From: a virus
Strand: one strand, 5' to 3'
Virus record (IMG/VR): IMGVR_UViG_3300025137_000120
Coordinates: 1-35,499 of that record
Length of the DNA stretch: 35,499 nt
The notes under the pieces were generated by a model. It searched no databases. It was not told where the DNA came from and saw only the letters and a program-made list of their open reading frames with translations. Position 1 is the stretch's first letter. Every line of letters starts with the position of its first letter. The position numbers and the translations under genes are program-made. Shown piece by piece: positions 6,650-35,480 of this stretch.

Positions 6650-7585
6650 TTAGTTAAACTCCGTATTTGCCATTACCTCTGTTAAACATGCCACAAGATT
6701 CAATTCATGATCTGCGACAAAACTATTTTTATATTGGTAATCAGCTAAGATAAGAACGAGTTGTGGTATAGATTTAGCATCGACATAATCATACATTGTG
6801 TCATATAGCTTTCTAAATATAGCAGCTGGTTCGCTATCCATATTGTCTGCAACCCATTGTCTCATCTTTCTGAAGTCTTTCATCTTAAGAAACCTAATTA
6901 GATCGTCTATAGAATCATCAGATAAATTAACCAATACACCAGTATCTATACTACCACCAGACCCATAGCGCTGCAATTCATTAATAACCCTACGCCAATC
7001 TGGCATATGTTTCATAATAAGTTCTGCTAGTACTTGTTTCTCATAATGAACGTCGTTCATTTTAAGAATCATTTCACAACGATTTAAGAATTGTTTACAT
7101 AGATCAGGCATATCTTTTTTGGCTACGTTAAATTCTATAACAGTACACCTAGAATGCAAGGGTTGAATTATCCTATTCTTAAAGTTGCATGTCAGAATAA
7201 ATCTGCAGTTCGAAGAGAATTCTTCTATGAACCCACGTAAAGCTGGTTGGGTGGATTGTGGATTTAGGTAATCCGCTTCATCGAGTATTACGACCTTATA
7301 TCCACCCGAGAGAGAAACAGTGCTTGCGAACTGTTTGATTTTATTTCTTAAGGTATCAATATTACCTTCTTCTGAACCATTCACGATTAGAAAATCTAAT
7401 CCTAGTTCATTGCAAAGTGCCTTAGCAACTGTAGTTTTCCCCACGCCGGCCGTGCCGGTTAGAAGCATATTGTGTAAGTCACCTCCGTTAACAATTTGCT
7501 CGAACGTTGCTTTTATGTGGGAAGGCAAAATTACCTCTGCAATAGTAGCTGGTCGATATTTCTCGACCCATAAAAATTCTGTCAT
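6650..7585 (-). CDS. gp44: Clamp-loader ATPase large subunit (gp44)
   Basis: 311 residues from the chosen start (MTEFLWVEKYRP), a typical AAA+ clamp-loader opening. Walker A is GTAGVGKT (44-51), Walker B VVILDEADY (98-106), and the arginine-finger SRC motif is in LHSRCTVIEF. ATP hydrolysis drives loading of gp45. The ATG at 7585 overlaps the TGA of the upstream gene (ATGA), the usual coupling; an in-frame ATG at 7597 would only add MGST. The gene is followed at once by the coiled-coil protein and gp62. Confidence 0.97.
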   Translation of the reverse strand: MTEFLWVEKYRPATIAEVILPSHIKATFEQIVNGGDLHNMLLTGTAGVGKTTVAKALCNELGLDFLIVNGSEEGNIDTLRNKIKQFASTVSLSGGYKVVILDEADYLNPQSTQPALRGFIEEFSSNCRFILTCNFKNRIIQPLHSRCTVIEFNVAKKDMPDLCKQFLNRCEMILKMNDVHYEKQVLAELIMKHMPDWRRVINELQRYGSGGSIDTGVLVNLSDDSIDDLIRFLKMKDFRKMRQWVADNMDSEPAAIFRKLYDTMYDYVDAKSIPQLVLILADYQYKNSFVADHELNLVACLTEVMANTEFN

Positions 7586-13705: not shown

Positions 13706-13782
13706 TGGCGCACCCAGGAGGACTCGAACCTCCAACCCTCGGCTTAGAAGGCCGATGTTCTATCCAGTTGAACTATGGGTGC
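13706..13782 (-). tRNA. tRNA-Arg (anticodon UCU), CCA encoded
   Basis: A complete cloverleaf on the minus strand: acceptor GCACCCA/TGGGTGC, D-arm GTTC/GAAC, anticodon stem TCGGC/GCCGA around CTTCTAA (anticodon TCT), T-stem GGAGG/CCTCC around TTCGAGT, discriminator G and encoded CCA at 13706-13708. It reads AGA and AGG, which suits an AT-rich genome. It begins six bases after the stop of the 72-residue gene upstream. Confidence 0.97.
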
Positions 13783-24035: not shown

Positions 24036-24695
24036 TTATTTAGAGTTTACAAGTTTCGAGAGGAAATTTTTAAATGCACGAATTTCAACATCAGATGATG
24101 CGGTGTTCCTTGCCGTCTTTATTTCAGTCTCAATTATTTCAATGTCTTGTGCTTTGAGTATTCCATTATCCCAAACCCATTCTACCCCTTCCATGATTCC
24201 ATTAACGAATGCTTCCGGAGCGGATGGATCTTGAACTATGTCTACGGTGGCTAACATAAAGTCTTTACCAACGTAACTAGTACCGCCTTTTTGCACAAGG
24301 CTTCCCATTCCACGACTTGATACACCAAGCTTAACTCCACCTTCAAGCAGACCTTCTACGATCTGTCCCATAGGGGTTTTAAGAATTGATGCTTTTCCTA
24401 CAACGTTACTTCCTTCCCAACGGAGCTCAGTAATTTTGTGAGAAACTTTGTCTAGATTAACAGTTGGTCCTTCCGGATGATTTAACTCTCCAACTGCTCT
24501 TCCAGTAGAAACCTGCTCTTTAACATATTTGTTAACAGCGGCTTCTAAAATCTTTTTTTCATATATTCGGCCGTTTCTATTTTTCGAATCGGCCTGCATA
24601 AATACGCCTTCAATAACATGGCTTTTATTACCTTTCTTATCTTCAGTAATAAAGTTTCTTATATTACTATCGTTGTATTCTGCGATTAATCTCAT
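24036..24695 (-). CDS. gp21: Prohead protease (gp21)
   Basis: 219 residues from MRLIAEYN. ELNHPEG (His73) and GVSSRG (Ser126/127) carry the catalytic His and Ser of herpesvirus-like prohead proteases; VEGVFMQADSKNRNGRIY-like text before them also matches T4 gp21. It cleaves gp22, gp67 and gp23. The chosen ATG at 24695 follows AGGAC and starts seven bases after the gp67-like stop; an in-frame ATG at 24725 would overlap that gene and add ten residues unlike the family. Confidence 0.93.
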   Translation of the reverse strand: MRLIAEYNDSNIRNFITEDKKGNKSHVIEGVFMQADSKNRNGRIYEKKILEAAVNKYVKEQVSTGRAVGELNHPEGPTVNLDKVSHKITELRWEGSNVVGKASILKTPMGQIVEGLLEGGVKLGVSSRGMGSLVQKGGTSYVGKDFMLATVDIVQDPSAPEAFVNGIMEGVEWVWDNGILKAQDIEIIETEIKTARNTASSDVEIRAFKNFLSKLVNSK

Positions 24696-24702
24696 AGTTG
24701 TC

Positions 24703-24903
24703 CTATTCTTCTGCTTCTGCTTCAACAGGTTCTTCGATTGGATCTTGATCCTTTCTTTGAACCATTGTAGAAGCTAGCTCTACTTTTTTTGCGTCTAAAG
24801 CATCAGACATTTTTCCAGCCATTGCTGTGTTAAATGCTTTTTCAGCGTTTATATTATCACCATCTTTTAATTTACCAATAATATCTTTAATTGTCTCACT
24901 CAT
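24703..24903 (-). CDS. gp67: Prohead core protein (gp67-like)
   Basis: 66 residues with a helical first half (IKDIIGKLKDGDNINAEKAF), DALDAKKVELASTM, and an acidic tail EEPVEAEAEE. This matches the size, position and charge layout of T4 gp67 (80 residues), an internal core protein cut to peptides by gp21. No separate gp68 is visible between it and gp21. A late promoter lies about 21 bases upstream. Confidence 0.78.
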   Translation of the reverse strand: MSETIKDIIGKLKDGDNINAEKAFNTAMAGKMSDALDAKKVELASTMVQRKDQDPIEEPVEAEAEE

Positions 24904-27051: not shown

Positions 27052-28743
27052 CTATACCCCTGCGATCTCGGAGAATTCTACTCCAGATCTGGTTGCAATG
27101 AAGTTCAAACTAATAAAGTTAATAGATCTTGCAGGCTTGATAAATATATCAGCTACGAATCTATTTCCGTCTATTACAGAACTTGTATTATTGGAAGTGT
27201 CACAAACTACTGAAAAGTCTGTTATACCTCTACGTCCTTTAACGTCTCTTAAGAAGGGCTCAACCATATTCTTGAACTGAGCTCTTGTGAATTCGTCGTT
27301 AAATTCAAATAATTGTGCCTTAGCTGCTGTTGAAATTGCTTTCTCAAGAGCTATGAACAATCTTCTAACGTTAATCCTGTCAAAAGCCGAGGCTCTGCTT
27401 AATAGGGTTTTATCCCCAAAGAGCATCATACCTTCACCTGGAAAAGATACTAAAGGATTAACACGTCCTTTATATAATGTATCTCTATCCGCTTTTTTCG
27501 GATTGAACGCTAATTTTGTTACACCTAATAGTTGACCTCGGTTAACACCTGCTGGTGAGAACCATGCATCTGCCACTCTATCGGTATTAGCACAAAGACC
27601 TGCCATGTGTCCTGCTGCACCTATGTATCTGTATAAGTCGTTATACTTATCATATACGTATAATGCACTAGAATCACATACTGCGTAGGAAGTACTCGTT
27701 AAACCATTTGCAAACGCCATAACGTCTGTAGCTGGTGATGAGCTTCCTGCTGTGTCTTCTATTGGAGGTGATACAAATGCAACTAAATCTTTTCTTGCGT
27801 TAGCAATAGAAATTAAGTCTTCTGCAATTGTTTCTGCTCCATTAGCATCTGGGCATGCAAACAATAAATTAACATCAACCGTTTCTGCGTCTTCGAAATT
27901 GTCATATGCTAATGCCATTTCTCCAACTGTTGGTGTGTTATCGTCTGATCCACCGCTTAAGCTATGATCTATAGCTGCCGCGTGTGTGTCATATGCCGCA
28001 CTTCTTGATGCTAAGCTTTCTCCAGCGTTTTGTAGATTTGTAGTGTCATGATCAGACCACCAAATATACTTAGAGGTGTTATTAATAACCTCTTTGTAAT
28101 AGTTTGATGTTCCGTCAGTCTTCTTCGCGTCTGACGCTTGAGATACGAATGCGAATGTCTCTAGAACGGTACCAGCTGTACCTGTCCATAATCCGTCTTC
28201 GTCTATAACTGCTACGTGTAATTCGTCGTTGTAAGAAGTTTTTCCTAAGTTAACTGCGTAATCAGATGTACCAGGAGCGCCATCAAAAGATGATGCAAAT
28301 GCCCAACCTGAAAAGCTACTGATTCCTTGCGAAATCATAGAAACTTTTAGACTGTTCCCTAGTGAACCTGGATATTTAGCTACCCATAAACCCTTATCCA
28401 ACGAACCACTCGAATAGTTATTTTCATAATCTGTATTATTCTTAATAAGTTGTCCAGTACCATCTGCGGTCGCATTATCATGACCTGAAGATACCCGTAC
28501 AACTTTCAGAGCGTTACCATACTTTAGGAATGCCGCTGCTGTAAGAAAATATTTCGCTGTATTGTCGTCTGGAGTACCAAATTGCTCAGCTAGTTCTGAT
28601 TCAGAACCTACTGTTACTATCTGGTCTGCTGGACCCCAGTTGAACGCACCTGCGAATCCACCAATGTTGGTAGATACTGCCGGAATTACATTCGTTGCGT
28701 CTATTTCTTTTACCTGGACGCCTGGTGATACTTGAAATGCCAT
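27052..28743 (-). CDS. gp18: Tail sheath protein (gp18)
   Basis: 563 residues (T4: 659). The N-terminal SPGVQVKEIDATNVIPAV and GAFNWGPADQI, and the C-terminal FVADIFIKPARSINFISLNF with a final FSEIAGV, are those of contractile sheaths. The C-terminal part, GRVNPLVSFPGEGMMLFGDK to FLRDVKGRRGI, is the conserved sheath core; the middle is shorter than in T4. A late promoter precedes it by about 70 bases. Confidence 0.97.
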   Translation of the reverse strand: MAFQVSPGVQVKEIDATNVIPAVSTNIGGFAGAFNWGPADQIVTVGSESELAEQFGTPDDNTAKYFLTAAAFLKYGNALKVVRVSSGHDNATADGTGQLIKNNTDYENNYSSGSLDKGLWVAKYPGSLGNSLKVSMISQGISSFSGWAFASSFDGAPGTSDYAVNLGKTSYNDELHVAVIDEDGLWTGTAGTVLETFAFVSQASDAKKTDGTSNYYKEVINNTSKYIWWSDHDTTNLQNAGESLASRSAAYDTHAAAIDHSLSGGSDDNTPTVGEMALAYDNFEDAETVDVNLLFACPDANGAETIAEDLISIANARKDLVAFVSPPIEDTAGSSSPATDVMAFANGLTSTSYAVCDSSALYVYDKYNDLYRYIGAAGHMAGLCANTDRVADAWFSPAGVNRGQLLGVTKLAFNPKKADRDTLYKGRVNPLVSFPGEGMMLFGDKTLLSRASAFDRINVRRLFIALEKAISTAAKAQLFEFNDEFTRAQFKNMVEPFLRDVKGRRGITDFSVVCDTSNNTSSVIDGNRFVADIFIKPARSINFISLNFIATRSGVEFSEIAGV

Positions 28744-28831: not shown

Positions 28832-30283
28832 CTAAGTGTCAGTATTGTCTTCTTTACTAACATAGTCTGATAATATAAATCTCCTATTTGGATTAACTGC
28901 AACTTTAAATGTAGTCATTAGTTCTCTATTAACTAACATTTCAGATGCAGAATCTGTTGTTGTTAAACCAATCCTAGTATTTGGATATGATTTATTATTG
29001 AAATTAACCGTCATTTCTATAACTGGCCTTTTTTCTTCCACTGTAGGTAATCTTCTTGCAATCGATACATCAATTATATCTGATTTAAATTCACTACCAT
29101 TCTTTCTCCAGATAGCTGTATCGCCATCTATCTTTAAATTATCTACATGTAACATGGAAGCGTTTGTACCGTTACCGGTGTCAAACTTAGCACGTATTGA
29201 ATTTTTCAATCCATCTAATTTAATTCTTTCTATAAAACCACATTCTGTTCTATGTAGCGGTTTTCTATGTAATTCGTGTGTGAAGTAATCTACTATTAAT
29301 TCTAGTACTTCTTCATCTGTTATTTTTCCTAAGGATTTACCATCTTCTAGGTCATATCCATTGAAGTGTGATCTGATTCCTGGTGATCCATTTATCTCTA
29401 AAACATAAAGATCTTTACCAACTTTACAATGATCTACACCGCAATAGAGTGCGCCAGTCGCACGTGCGGACTGTTTAACGAGTTCTTTTTCTTCATCTGA
29501 TAGTTTATATGGCTTTGTTTTTGCACCTAAATGTACGTTGTTTCTAAACTCTTTTTCGTCTTGCTTAATCCGTTCAGCTGATCCTAGGATCTTACCATTA
29601 ATAACTAATGTTCTTATATCTGATTCCAATGGCAAGTATTGCTGGATTAATAGTTGTGCATCATATTTCCATAATGCTTGACAAACAGAAACTAACGATT
29701 GTTTACTCTCTGCTATAGCAACACCAACTCCTTGTGTACCTGTTAATGTTTTGATGACAACAGGAAATTTACCTCCGATCTTTTCATGAGCAGAGTCTAT
29801 AGACTTAATATTTGTTATAACAGATGATTTAGGTGTAGGTATATTATTACGATCTAATGCAATTACGTTTGACATTTTATTATCACATAGCATCATTGAT
29901 TCTAAATCGTTTACCATAAAGAATCCATATGTACCTAAAGAAGATACTAAGGACTGTGATACTAAAGTTTGTATAGCCCCAGCTCTTACGAATACAATTG
30001 AATTTTCTTTACTTATTTCTATTTCACTATCTTCACCATCATAGTTCTGGAAAACCACGGATCCTAAATCAACATCAACAGAAGAGATAAAGGCTTCCTC
30101 TACATTTATTAATGTAAATTTCATTCCTCTTTTCTTAGTAAGCTTACTAACTATATCCGCAAATGTTCCTTCTTCTTCCCCAAGTCCAAGCACAATACAA
30201 TGTAGCTTAGAAGGATCTTTTTCAAATACCCTCTTTTCTTGTATTATTTCGTTATCCGAATTTTGCCAGTCTTTAAATTTCAT
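28832..30283 (-). CDS. RimK-like ATP-grasp ligase fused to RimB-type aspartic-protease-like domain
   Basis: 483 residues in two domains. Residues 130-335 are a RimK-type ATP-grasp: FPVVIKTLTGTQGVGV (Lys178 and glycine loop), LLIQQYLP and LYVLEINGSPG (Glu297, Asn299, metal ligands). Residues 345-475 look like a retropepsin-type domain: IRAKFDTGNGTNASMLHV (Asp368-Thr-Gly) and TDSASEMLVNRELM, then VNPNRRFILS, as in RimB/DUF785 ATP-dependent protease-like proteins. RimK adds Glu to ribosomal protein S6 in bacteria, and RimB is its usual partner. The target in a phage is not known: S6, another host protein, or a virion tail. It lies between gp17 and gp18, is transcribed with gp16/gp17, and is not present at this point in T4. 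Confidence 0.82.
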   Translation of the reverse strand: MKFKDWQNSDNEIIQEKRVFEKDPSKLHCIVLGLGEEEGTFADIVSKLTKKRGMKFTLINVEEAFISSVDVDLGSVVFQNYDGEDSEIEISKENSIVFVRAGAIQTLVSQSLVSSLGTYGFFMVNDLESMMLCDNKMSNVIALDRNNIPTPKSSVITNIKSIDSAHEKIGGKFPVVIKTLTGTQGVGVAIAESKQSLVSVCQALWKYDAQLLIQQYLPLESDIRTLVINGKILGSAERIKQDEKEFRNNVHLGAKTKPYKLSDEEKELVKQSARATGALYCGVDHCKVGKDLYVLEINGSPGIRSHFNGYDLEDGKSLGKITDEEVLELIVDYFTHELHRKPLHRTECGFIERIKLDGLKNSIRAKFDTGNGTNASMLHVDNLKIDGDTAIWRKNGSEFKSDIIDVSIARRLPTVEEKRPVIEMTVNFNNKSYPNTRIGLTTTDSASEMLVNRELMTTFKVAVNPNRRFILSDYVSKEDNTDT

Positions 30284-30284
30284 A

Positions 30285-31895
30285 TTACCAGTTTATAAAT
30301 TTAGTGTCGTCCTCGAACCACACGTTTCCATCTTTGTCTTTAGTATATTTATGCTCTTCAGATTTCTCACCTAAAAACCCTACTGGAAGCATATCATCTT
30401 GTATTGCTGCTAATCTTTCTCTATATAACATATCTTTCATGTCGATATCGGTTAAAGATCTAAATATATCAGTAGTGGTAAACCACGCAAACAATACTAA
30501 GTTCATCATTAAGTCATCATGATTTGGTGCTACAGCCTGAAATGAATTGCCTTTACTTACAAAAGTACTCATTTCAATAATTGTATTAGCATCTACTATC
30601 TCTAGTTTTTTCTGTTCAATTAAATCTTTTATTGTAGAACATCCTATACGTTTTACTCTTCTAGTCATCGTAGCACCAATTGCATTAGCTTTTACGGATG
30701 ATTCAACAAATATGTTTTCATATTCTAAATCATAATATAAACCATTACAAACCACAGCACCTTGGTCGTTACTTTCTACAATTACATATGCATCATTATA
30801 ACTTTTAGCATACTTATAAATGATATCTGGAAATAACATAGGAGATAAATTGTTATCTCTAAACGTTGCTACTTGCTTAAAAGGATTACAGGTTACATCA
30901 ATAACAGTAAACGTACTATAATCTTGTCCTCTTCCTTTTGCAACATCAACTGTCATTATATATTCGTGATCTTCTATCGCTTGTTCATATATCCAAACAT
31001 TCTCTTTAAAGAATTCAGGAGATTGGCTTTTTTGGGCTAACAGATAATTAGCATCGATTAATGTATTACCACGTCCGTGGAATGTATTACCAAACTCTTG
31101 TTCAAATTGTAGTTCAGAAGTATTAGCAATAGTTTCCTTTTGCCATTTTTTATTTCTTCCTGGTACATCCCACCAATCTATACGGAATGGCTTATAATCA
31201 TTTGTACCCTGCGAAGCACCTTCCCATAGTTTATGATATACATTACCTATCCCATTTGCTGTAGAACAAATTATAATTTGGGTATCTTTACCTGCCGAGA
31301 CCACTGGATAAGTTGATGTGTAAAATTGGGCATCATTATCAATAAAAGCAAACTCATCTAAGAACAATAAGTTAATAGATAAACCCCTTATAGAACTTCC
31401 GGACGTTGCCGCTGCTAAGATCTTGGAATTGTTACTGAATGTTATTGATCCTTTATTTAATTCCTTAGTTCCTGGTTGTAAAAAGAAAGGTAAGTTTTCT
31501 AGAGCTAATGTTATACGAGCTAGCATTTCTCTAGCTACTGCACCTTTGTTTGCGAGTATAGCTATGGTTTTTTCTGGGTGAAATACCGCATACCATAAGA
31601 TATAAACCACACTAGATATACTTTTACCACTCTGTCTACATGCTAACACTATACTAAATCTATTACTATTGAAGTGTTTAAACATCTTTTTTTGATATGG
31701 ATATAGGTTAAATGGTACTAATCCTTCATCTAAAGATATAATCTTAACATATTTTTTAGCAAAGTATACAGGATCTTTCATACATTTCATGTACTCCCGT
31801 ATTTCTTCTTTGCTAAATTCTGTCTCTACACCGTCCCGTTTTACATTGGGATTACCTAGATAACCGAATTCGTTGTTCTTAATCCTCTGCATCAA
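30285..31895 (-). CDS. gp17: Terminase large subunit (gp17)
   Basis: 536 residues (T4: 610). Walker A CRQSGKS (86-92), Walker B LLFLDEFAF (176-184) and C-motif CSTANG give the packaging ATPase. Nuclease residues are in VDVAKGRGQDY (Asp317), VIVESNDQG (Glu374) and PNHDD (Asp460/461). It cuts concatemers and pumps DNA through gp20. It overlaps gp16 by 17 bases. Confidence 0.98.
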   Translation of the reverse strand: MMQRIKNNEFGYLGNPNVKRDGVETEFSKEEIREYMKCMKDPVYFAKKYVKIISLDEGLVPFNLYPYQKKMFKHFNSNRFSIVLACRQSGKSISSVVYILWYAVFHPEKTIAILANKGAVAREMLARITLALENLPFFLQPGTKELNKGSITFSNNSKILAAATSGSSIRGLSINLLFLDEFAFIDNDAQFYTSTYPVVSAGKDTQIIICSTANGIGNVYHKLWEGASQGTNDYKPFRIDWWDVPGRNKKWQKETIANTSELQFEQEFGNTFHGRGNTLIDANYLLAQKSQSPEFFKENVWIYEQAIEDHEYIMTVDVAKGRGQDYSTFTVIDVTCNPFKQVATFRDNNLSPMLFPDIIYKYAKSYNDAYVIVESNDQGAVVCNGLYYDLEYENIFVESSVKANAIGATMTRRVKRIGCSTIKDLIEQKKLEIVDANTIIEMSTFVSKGNSFQAVAPNHDDLMMNLVLFAWFTTTDIFRSLTDIDMKDMLYRERLAAIQDDMLPVGFLGEKSEEHKYTKDKDGNVWFEDDTKFINW

Positions 31896-34502: not shown

Positions 34503-35480
34503 TTATCCTACGTAAAAGTCGACTGGTTGTTCCCAATTTAATCGGGCTTCTTCTTCCAATCTTGTAATTTCTTCATTTGCATCATCAAAAAGTTGTCTTC
34601 CGTTAAACGTAACTCCACCAGGCATTTGCATACCTTCGAACTTTAGTAGGTTTGTTCCCCATTGTCTTTTAATTAATGATGTAGCATATTTCTTTAAAAA
34701 GTAATCGTTATAAACATCAGTGTATGTATCTGGATCTAAAATCCGGAAGCACTCTACTACAATATAATCATCTACCTGTACTTCTTGTGACCAATTCATG
34801 AATATATCTAATTGATTTTTATGCATATCAAAGTTAATAGTTTTTTCGTCACTATCTATAATGTTATCAAGCATATCTAAGTATTGCATACTCATAACAT
34901 ACTCAGCTAAACTACCCATAAATCCTAAACTATATAAATCATTCATATGAATCTGATATCTTATATCGAACATATCACTAGTAGAAACTGAATCACGAAT
35001 AGGTATTACTCTTACGACATTTTGTACTAAATCAGGAATAGGAATAAATCTATTTTCTATATTTCCTTTTACTATTCCATTAGATGATGAAATAACACCA
35101 GTTGCACCTGATGTTCCACCTGTTACTGTTTCACTAGCTTGGAAAGGTACGTTAGGATTGCCTAATGTATTATATCTTAGTGTGGATGTAGTTGGTACTT
35201 TTTTTACAGTAGCAATTGCTCCTGATGTACCACCAGTCATTATTTCGCCTTCTATAAATGTTCCTGTGGTTACTGCTTGAAATACTAATTCACTATTAGT
35301 TATTTGATGCTTTAAGAATACTTTTTCGATTCCATCCATATGATAGTTTTGATAGAATTGTAGAGCTTCGTCTATTCTATCATCGATTTGATCCTCGTCG
35401 ACATTTATTTCGATCACCGGTGCTCCCAATGATCTTAAACAGAAATCAATTAATGTTGTTTTACTATTTGGTTTAGCCAT
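34503..35480 (-). CDS. gp13: Neck protein (gp13) with inserted tandem TGGTSGA repeats
   Basis: 325 residues (T4: 309). FCLRSLGAPVIEINVDEDQIDDRIDEALQ is trimmed to the known gp13 opening, and the C-terminal part, LIKRQWGTNLLKFEGMQMPGG, also matches. Between residues about 75 and 132 are two repeats of F-x2-(G/S)-E-x-(M/V)-TGGTSGA, a small beta insertion. A late promoter lies directly upstream: only five bases lie between TATAAATA and the ATG at 35480, so its mRNA should be near-leaderless. Confidence 0.92.
   Translation of the reverse strand: MAKPNSKTTLIDFCLRSLGAPVIEINVDEDQIDDRIDEALQFYQNYHMDGIEKVFLKHQITNSELVFQAVTTGTFIEGEIMTGGTSGAIATVKKVPTTSTLRYNTLGNPNVPFQASETVTGGTSGATGVISSSNGIVKGNIENRFIPIPDLVQNVVRVIPIRDSVSTSDMFDIRYQIHMNDLYSLGFMGSLAEYVMSMQYLDMLDNIIDSDEKTINFDMHKNQLDIFMNWSQEVQVDDYIVVECFRILDPDTYTDVYNDYFLKKYATSLIKRQWGTNLLKFEGMQMPGGVTFNGRQLFDDANEEITRLEEEARLNWEQPVDFYVG

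Follow-up and report, generated by a model that had tools for sequence, protein, structure and literature searches.

Ribosomal protein bS6 is the classical substrate of the RimK ligase, and among injected phage enzymes T4 Alt performs ADP-ribosylation. Here we describe a gene that may link these two themes: a RimK-RimB fusion (hereafter KB) that occupies positions 28832-30283 on the minus strand of a 35,499-nucleotide fragment of a T4-like bacteriophage (IMG/VR record IMGVR_UViG_3300025137_000120, referred to throughout as the window). Its kind of enzyme is already known. In bacteria, the RimBK hybrid, exemplified by Desulfotalea psychrophila DP2392, has been shown to have protease activity on glutamylated S6, and RimB of Pseudomonas fluorescens also stimulates the synthesis of free poly-glutamate by RimK (Little et al. 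2025, PMC11957791). In marine metagenomes, Monier et al. (2008, Genome Biol 9:R106; PMC2530865) described more than 100 GOS contigs with RimK homologues, several of them with a C-terminal DUF785 domain, as well as contigs that carry gp17, gp18 or regA, and noted that DUF785 is N-terminal in some bacteria and C-terminal in Halobacteria. The fusion and its gp17/gp18 setting were already published in that 2008 paper (PMC2530865), whose genes share with KB both the domain order and the marine T4-like setting. The section and passages of that account available to us contain no protease assignment, N-terminal targeting sequence or virion localisation, and it is a probable location in the virion that we argue for here.

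Each of the described systems resembles KB in part. Bacterial RimBK likewise combines RimK with a retropepsin-like RimB in one chain, but its RimB domain is N-terminal, whereas KB has RimK followed by RimB. The haloarchaeal fusions of Salinirubellus (L217) and Haladaptatus (L218) do place RimK first and a DTG-bearing domain second, yet they have no capsid-targeting-like start. With T4 IPI-IPIII and Alt we propose that KB shares a logic, namely an N-terminal tag, entry into the prohead core, cleavage by gp21, injection and early action on the host, although the catalytic domains are unrelated and the T4 proteins have been proven to enter the head, which for KB is only a proposal.

Domains, active sites and folds of the KB protein

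KB is a single unbroken open reading frame (ORF) of 483 residues that starts at ATG. Its RimK N-domain and ATP-grasp domain span residues 27-341 (29261..30205, minus strand, as for all features below), within which residues 134-305 match PF08443 (RimK) at E 8.3e-38 and 130.3 bits against a cut-off of 21. The score against the NCBIfam RimK subfamily TIGR00768 is just below threshold (137.7 against 143.4 bits), and that against the S6--L-glutamate ligase equivalog NF007764 is 86.5 bits against a cut-off of 331, so that KB is not classed as an S6 ligase orthologue. A RimB/RloA-type retropepsin-like domain follows at residues 345-470 (28874..29251). Residues 349-470 match PF05618 (RimB/DUF785) at E 3.6e-5, with 24.1 bits, under the cut-off of 27, in one search and 28.9 bits, above it, in another that included the domain's neighbours; the same family is matched at E <= 0.01 by 38 of 47 relatives that we aligned down to about 23% identity.

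All 47 aligned proteins retain the ATP-grasp lysine K178 (29750..29752), D284 (29432..29434), E296 and N298 (codons for residues 296 to 298 at 29390..29398) and D368 (29180..29182), the single catalytic aspartate of a DTGN motif in which G370 is likewise invariant and T369 is conserved in at least 90%. From what is known of the family, D284, E296 and N298 are putative metal ligands. The preliminary description of this DNA had singled out Lys178, Asp368 and Glu297; the first two are invariant, but the conserved glutamate is E296. Its suggestion that a RimK-type ligase and a RimB-type protease are joined in one chain is borne out by the domain matches, by intact active sites, with the catalytic aspartate and the ATP-grasp ligands kept in all aligned relatives, and by the predicted folds. 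Modelled as a complete chain with AlphaFold2 (mean predicted local distance difference test score, pLDDT, 85.3), KB matches RimK alone and the RimK-RpsF complex at Z 28-29 (5zk6, Z 28.5 over residues 27-341), with ArgX (3vpb) tying with RimK in the same list, and the C-terminal domain modelled alone (pLDDT 87.6) matches the DUF785 structure 2pma and RloA/RloA2 (9g58/9g59) at Z 15.5-16.2, followed at about Z 9 by retroviral and Ddi1 proteases, which points to a retropepsin fold. A profile built from the alignment agrees, having RimK 7qyr as its best structure (E 6.2e-48, compared with about 1e-20 for LysX/ArgX) and DUF785/RloA structures for its C-terminal part (2pma, E 8.8e-9).

Both domains are under purifying selection, since the ratio of nonsynonymous to synonymous substitution rates (dN/dS) between the window and eight close relatives is low in each: 0.05-0.14 for the RimK N-domain, 0.055-0.10 for the ATP-grasp domain and 0.08-0.24 for the RimB domain. 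Judged from sequence and models together, KB is very likely an intact bifunctional enzyme. Retropepsin-like domains contribute one catalytic aspartate per chain, and the KB protease should therefore act as a dimer. Membership in a defence system was also considered and rejected, because KB had no PADLOC match at E <= 0.01.

The N-terminal extension and the T4 capsid-targeting sequence

Ten residues of T4 IPIII are enough for packaging (PMC9026906; see also PMC3012670), and the mutants described for this protein assign targeting chiefly to positions 4 and 7 and processing to positions 8 and 10, with gp21 cleaving after L/I-x-E (PMC9026906). Both IPII and IPIII of T4 begin with MKTYQEFIAEA. In most KB relatives an extension precedes the RimK domain, and among their starts are MEKFTEFLKEA (L061, from the second Met), MERFNEFLIEK, MEKFKSFITEA (L115) and MFDFTNYITEA (L111). 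A strict pattern (aromatic at 4 and 7, L or I at 8, E at 10) is present in 29 of 69 distinct N-termini of the KB family and in none of 380 other ORFs, all 120 codons or longer, from the same loci. Shuffled KB N-termini gave it 0.01 times on average, with the first Met alone serving as start there, whereas the real sequences could start at any Met up to residue 26. A freer core pattern separates phage from cellular proteins (31/76 phage-clade N-termini against 0/60 cellular homologues), and among 37 T4 coding sequences it picks out exactly two, ipII and ipIII. It occurs in 26 of 27 members of the largest clade, in one of four in the L045 group, in two of three in the L111 lineage and in the single members of the L115 and L119 lineages (1/1 each), the last three being deeply split lineages. 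The RimK-only enzyme of phage Melnitz, which is without a protease domain, carries LTQKFSQFITEE at its annotated TTG start. Besides KB, two of the 132 genes called in record G002 start with MKGFNTFITEA and MKSYNQYLAEA, as would be expected if such a tag is common to several proteins. In the literature that we searched on virion RimK, cyanophage capsid targeting and T4-like metagenomic RimK, a body that included few subscription papers and no preprints, we found neither a phage RimK described as packaged nor the tag-like KB N-terminus.

In the window itself the extension comprises residues 1-26 (30206..30283) and has a weaker form than in sister clades, with F3, W6 and I-x-E at 14-16; a helix is predicted at residues 3-9. 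All 12 members of the window's clade keep two aromatic residues of this kind and, close by, an [LIV]-x-E. We infer from this resemblance that the extension either is a capsid-targeting sequence of the T4 type or descends from one by drift.

A number of observations weigh against this inference and against packaging in general. The window's clade, its own protein included, is 0/12 on both the strict and the core pattern, a weak pattern like that of the window also occurs in 20 of the 380 background ORFs, and the L097/L099 clade failed both patterns throughout (0/10). The extension evolves fast in the window's clade (dN/dS about 0.25-1.8 on 26 codons). Homologues are not independent of one another, so that the counts given above overstate significance, and T4 Alt, itself packaged, has no core match, which means that the core is not necessary for packaging. 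Phage YerA41 bears on the question from both sides. Its KB homologue, 29% identical, carries the annotation of a structural protein, and among the particle-associated proteins that the YerA41 paper identified by liquid chromatography with tandem mass spectrometry is g112, a "ribosomal protein modification protein"; by gene order we equate g112 with this homologue. Its presence in the particle lends weak support to packaging, because the same virion list also holds polymerases and helicases, YerA41 is not T4-like and its homologue is without the tag motif. According to the same paper, the homologue's gene peaks in the middle class.

Late-promoter-like elements were also considered. The KB start codon is preceded, 5 nt upstream, by a TATAAATA element in the L036/L111/L112 group, an arrangement that fits late genes. 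Across the five sequences counted, 7 of 68 TATAAATA occurrences stand exactly 5 nt before an ATG (L036 at 3172, 4956 and 8294, the window at 35480, and three sites in G001). If these elements are T4-type late promoters, the transcripts would be nearly leaderless. As a candidate late promoter for the window's own KB gene, CATAAATA was rejected and is not used as evidence; it lies 62 nt upstream of the start, inside the coding end of gp17.

Possible actions and substrates

The explanation we favour is that KB is a packaged and injected modifying enzyme of the RimK/RimB type, an account that in our judgement is as apt to prove right as wrong. Packaging as such is likely for the family as a whole, and for the window's own protein we consider the matter evenly balanced. 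According to this explanation, the extension would take the enzyme into the prohead core, where the phage's gp21-like head maturation protease (24036..24725, phrog_207) would remove the capsid-targeting sequence by cutting after the [LIV]-x-E site ahead of the RimK domain. The enzyme so matured would remain in the head and enter the next host with the DNA. There, by analogy with RimK, it would extend a host protein at its C-terminus with acidic residues, of which glutamate is the most likely, while the RimB domain, if it behaves as in the RimK/RimB biochemistry, would trim such tails or stimulate the ligase. The first candidate substrate is bS6, which is a guess, and we consider it less likely than not that the target lies on the host ribosome. 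The proposal in the preliminary description that the two domains form a writer-eraser pair is plausible but simplified: RimB also stimulates RimK, and with the bacterial RimBK hybrid in purified form cleavage of glutamylated S6 was seen but glutamylation of S6 was not (PMC11957791), a result that also tells against the action we propose.

A capsid-targeting-like extension changes the place and time at which KB would act relative to the preliminary description. If KB is packaged, abundant marine phages would deliver both a writer and an eraser of protein tails together with their DNA, at a time when phage gene expression has not yet begun; amino-acid ligation would join the short list of modifications carried out by injected phage enzymes; and the long-known, unexplained rimK genes of phages would gain a site and a moment of action that can be tested, with Mosig and Melnitz available as cultured phages.

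The principal alternative is that KB is an ordinary late-expressed moron that modifies a host protein such as bS6 during infection, the similarity to the tag having no packaging role in this lineage. The rapid evolution of the window's extension and its lack of the strict motif fit such a gene, as do the middle-class peak of the YerA41 homologue and a location that differs between phages (gp17-gp18, RegA-polymerase, RNR, that is, ribonucleotide reductase, cluster) in the manner of mobile accessory genes, but it leaves unaccounted for that several deeply split lineages, and none of the 60 cellular homologues, match an experimentally mapped tag exactly at four positions; we give it a real but minor chance. 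An action on small molecules, in which the ligase would produce free poly-glutamate or alter a small molecule and neither ribosomal nor virion proteins would be targets, draws on the use of coenzymes and LysW by members of the RimK family and on the structural tie between ArgX and RimK, but the sequence profile prefers RimK to LysX/ArgX and we consider this explanation very improbable.

The same tag could also place KB beside a phage substrate. A capsid-targeting sequence would put the enzyme in the prohead core next to gp67, and KB might there extend or trim the acidic C-terminus of a core protein and so tune head assembly. In the window, a gp67-like prohead core protein (24703-24903, between portal and gp21) ends in EAEAEE, and its counterparts end in Glu in every complete relative seen of the gp17-KB-gp18 lineage and in Melnitz. 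However, gp67 of T4 ends in Glu although T4 gave no KB match, Mosig has KB and a gp67-like protein ending in Thr, and the corresponding proteins of HTVC008M, S-SM2, C48C1 and S-RIM12 end in D, V, S and S, respectively. Support for the acidic core protein as a substrate is thus mixed, and in view of the T4 and Mosig exceptions the correlation is incomplete and this explanation is retained as an improbable one.

We also considered phage-encoded ribosomal proteins as substrates. A phage S6 was rejected, PF01250 having no match in 13 records, seven of which are fragments under 40 kb. Phage bS21 (PF01165) was found in five of the 13 (G001, G002, G003, Mosig and Melnitz), which are the five longest marine KB/RimK records searched, and not in YerA41, the seven short fragments or the window. 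The bS21 C-termini of L214-L216 are basic, not acidic, and HTVC008M has bS21 and no KB match; bS21 may therefore mark only the lineage. Its co-occurrence with KB would suit a strategy directed at translation. In its most extended form, the idea is that KB, conserved across marine T4-like phages and present on large-phage-like gut contigs, is a head-packaged, injected effector. In the opening minutes of infection it would glutamylate and trim a protein of host translation, possibly together with bS21; we regard this version as rather unlikely.

Distribution, phylogeny and genomic surroundings

Viral contigs yielded 33 KB relatives in an initial scan, and a second scan with the alignment gave at least 599 pattern matches, of which 80 were kept. 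Matches to KB were present in 20 of 50,697 phage records, two of them covering 80% of the query. Gene order was examined in 122 locus entries, a set in which some contigs recur and to which the cellular loci L125 and L127 belong. The order gp17-KB-gp18, with gp17 upstream and gp18 downstream, was found in 71; one of the two genes was present and the contig ended on the other side in 10; RegA and/or the polymerase adjoined KB in 8; and in 33 no window gene adjoined KB or the contig edge was reached. The neighbours vary by lineage, comprising gp17/gp18, RegA/polymerase, a GroES-like gene recognised by eye and the RNR cluster, and a guess at the substrate from the neighbourhood was rejected for that reason.

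In an arbitrarily rooted tree, the phage enzymes are separated from bacterial RimK and RimBK by a branch with 100/100 support, the sampled bacterial hybrids and phage KB thus lying on opposite sides of it, and in a smaller, likewise arbitrarily rooted tree the phage clade also stands apart from the two haloarchaeal fusions (96/97). On these trees an origin of KB from a bacterial RimBK hybrid is not favoured. The RimK-only genes L005 (Melnitz, 82-1131) and L172 sit within the phage fusion side of the trees, which suggests that the RimB domain was lost there. L006 lies on a long branch together with L162. At 4763-6223 of L031, KB is 64% identical to that of the window, while its gp17 and portal are 91% and 89% identical; this KB is probably a replacement by a divergent allele. 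RimK-RimB genes also occur on gut or rumen contigs filed as Firmicutes (L122, L124, L126 and L128), two of them about 400 kb long, and these contigs may be large phages binned with bacteria. The L122 contig also has phage-type thymidylate synthase and deoxynucleoside monophosphate (dNMP) kinase genes, and a gene soon after its RimK-RimB gene (6822-7400) has the tag-like start MKNLNHYISEA.

The window is recognisable as a T4-like fragment by its minus-strand genes for terminase subunits, sheath, tube, portal, prohead protease, scaffold and major capsid protein. By capsid protein comparison its closest cultured phage is Methylophilales phage Melnitz (64%), followed by phage C48C1 and Pelagibacter phage HTVC008M. 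KB is flanked upstream by a gp17-like terminase large subunit gene (30285..31895) and downstream by a gp18-like tail sheath gene (27052..28743), and since gp18 directly follows gp17 in T4 with nothing in between, the earlier remark that the gene sits at a position with no T4 counterpart was correct. The window also carries two tRNA genes, tRNA-Ala(TGC) at 250-325 and tRNA-Arg(TCT) at 13706-13782.
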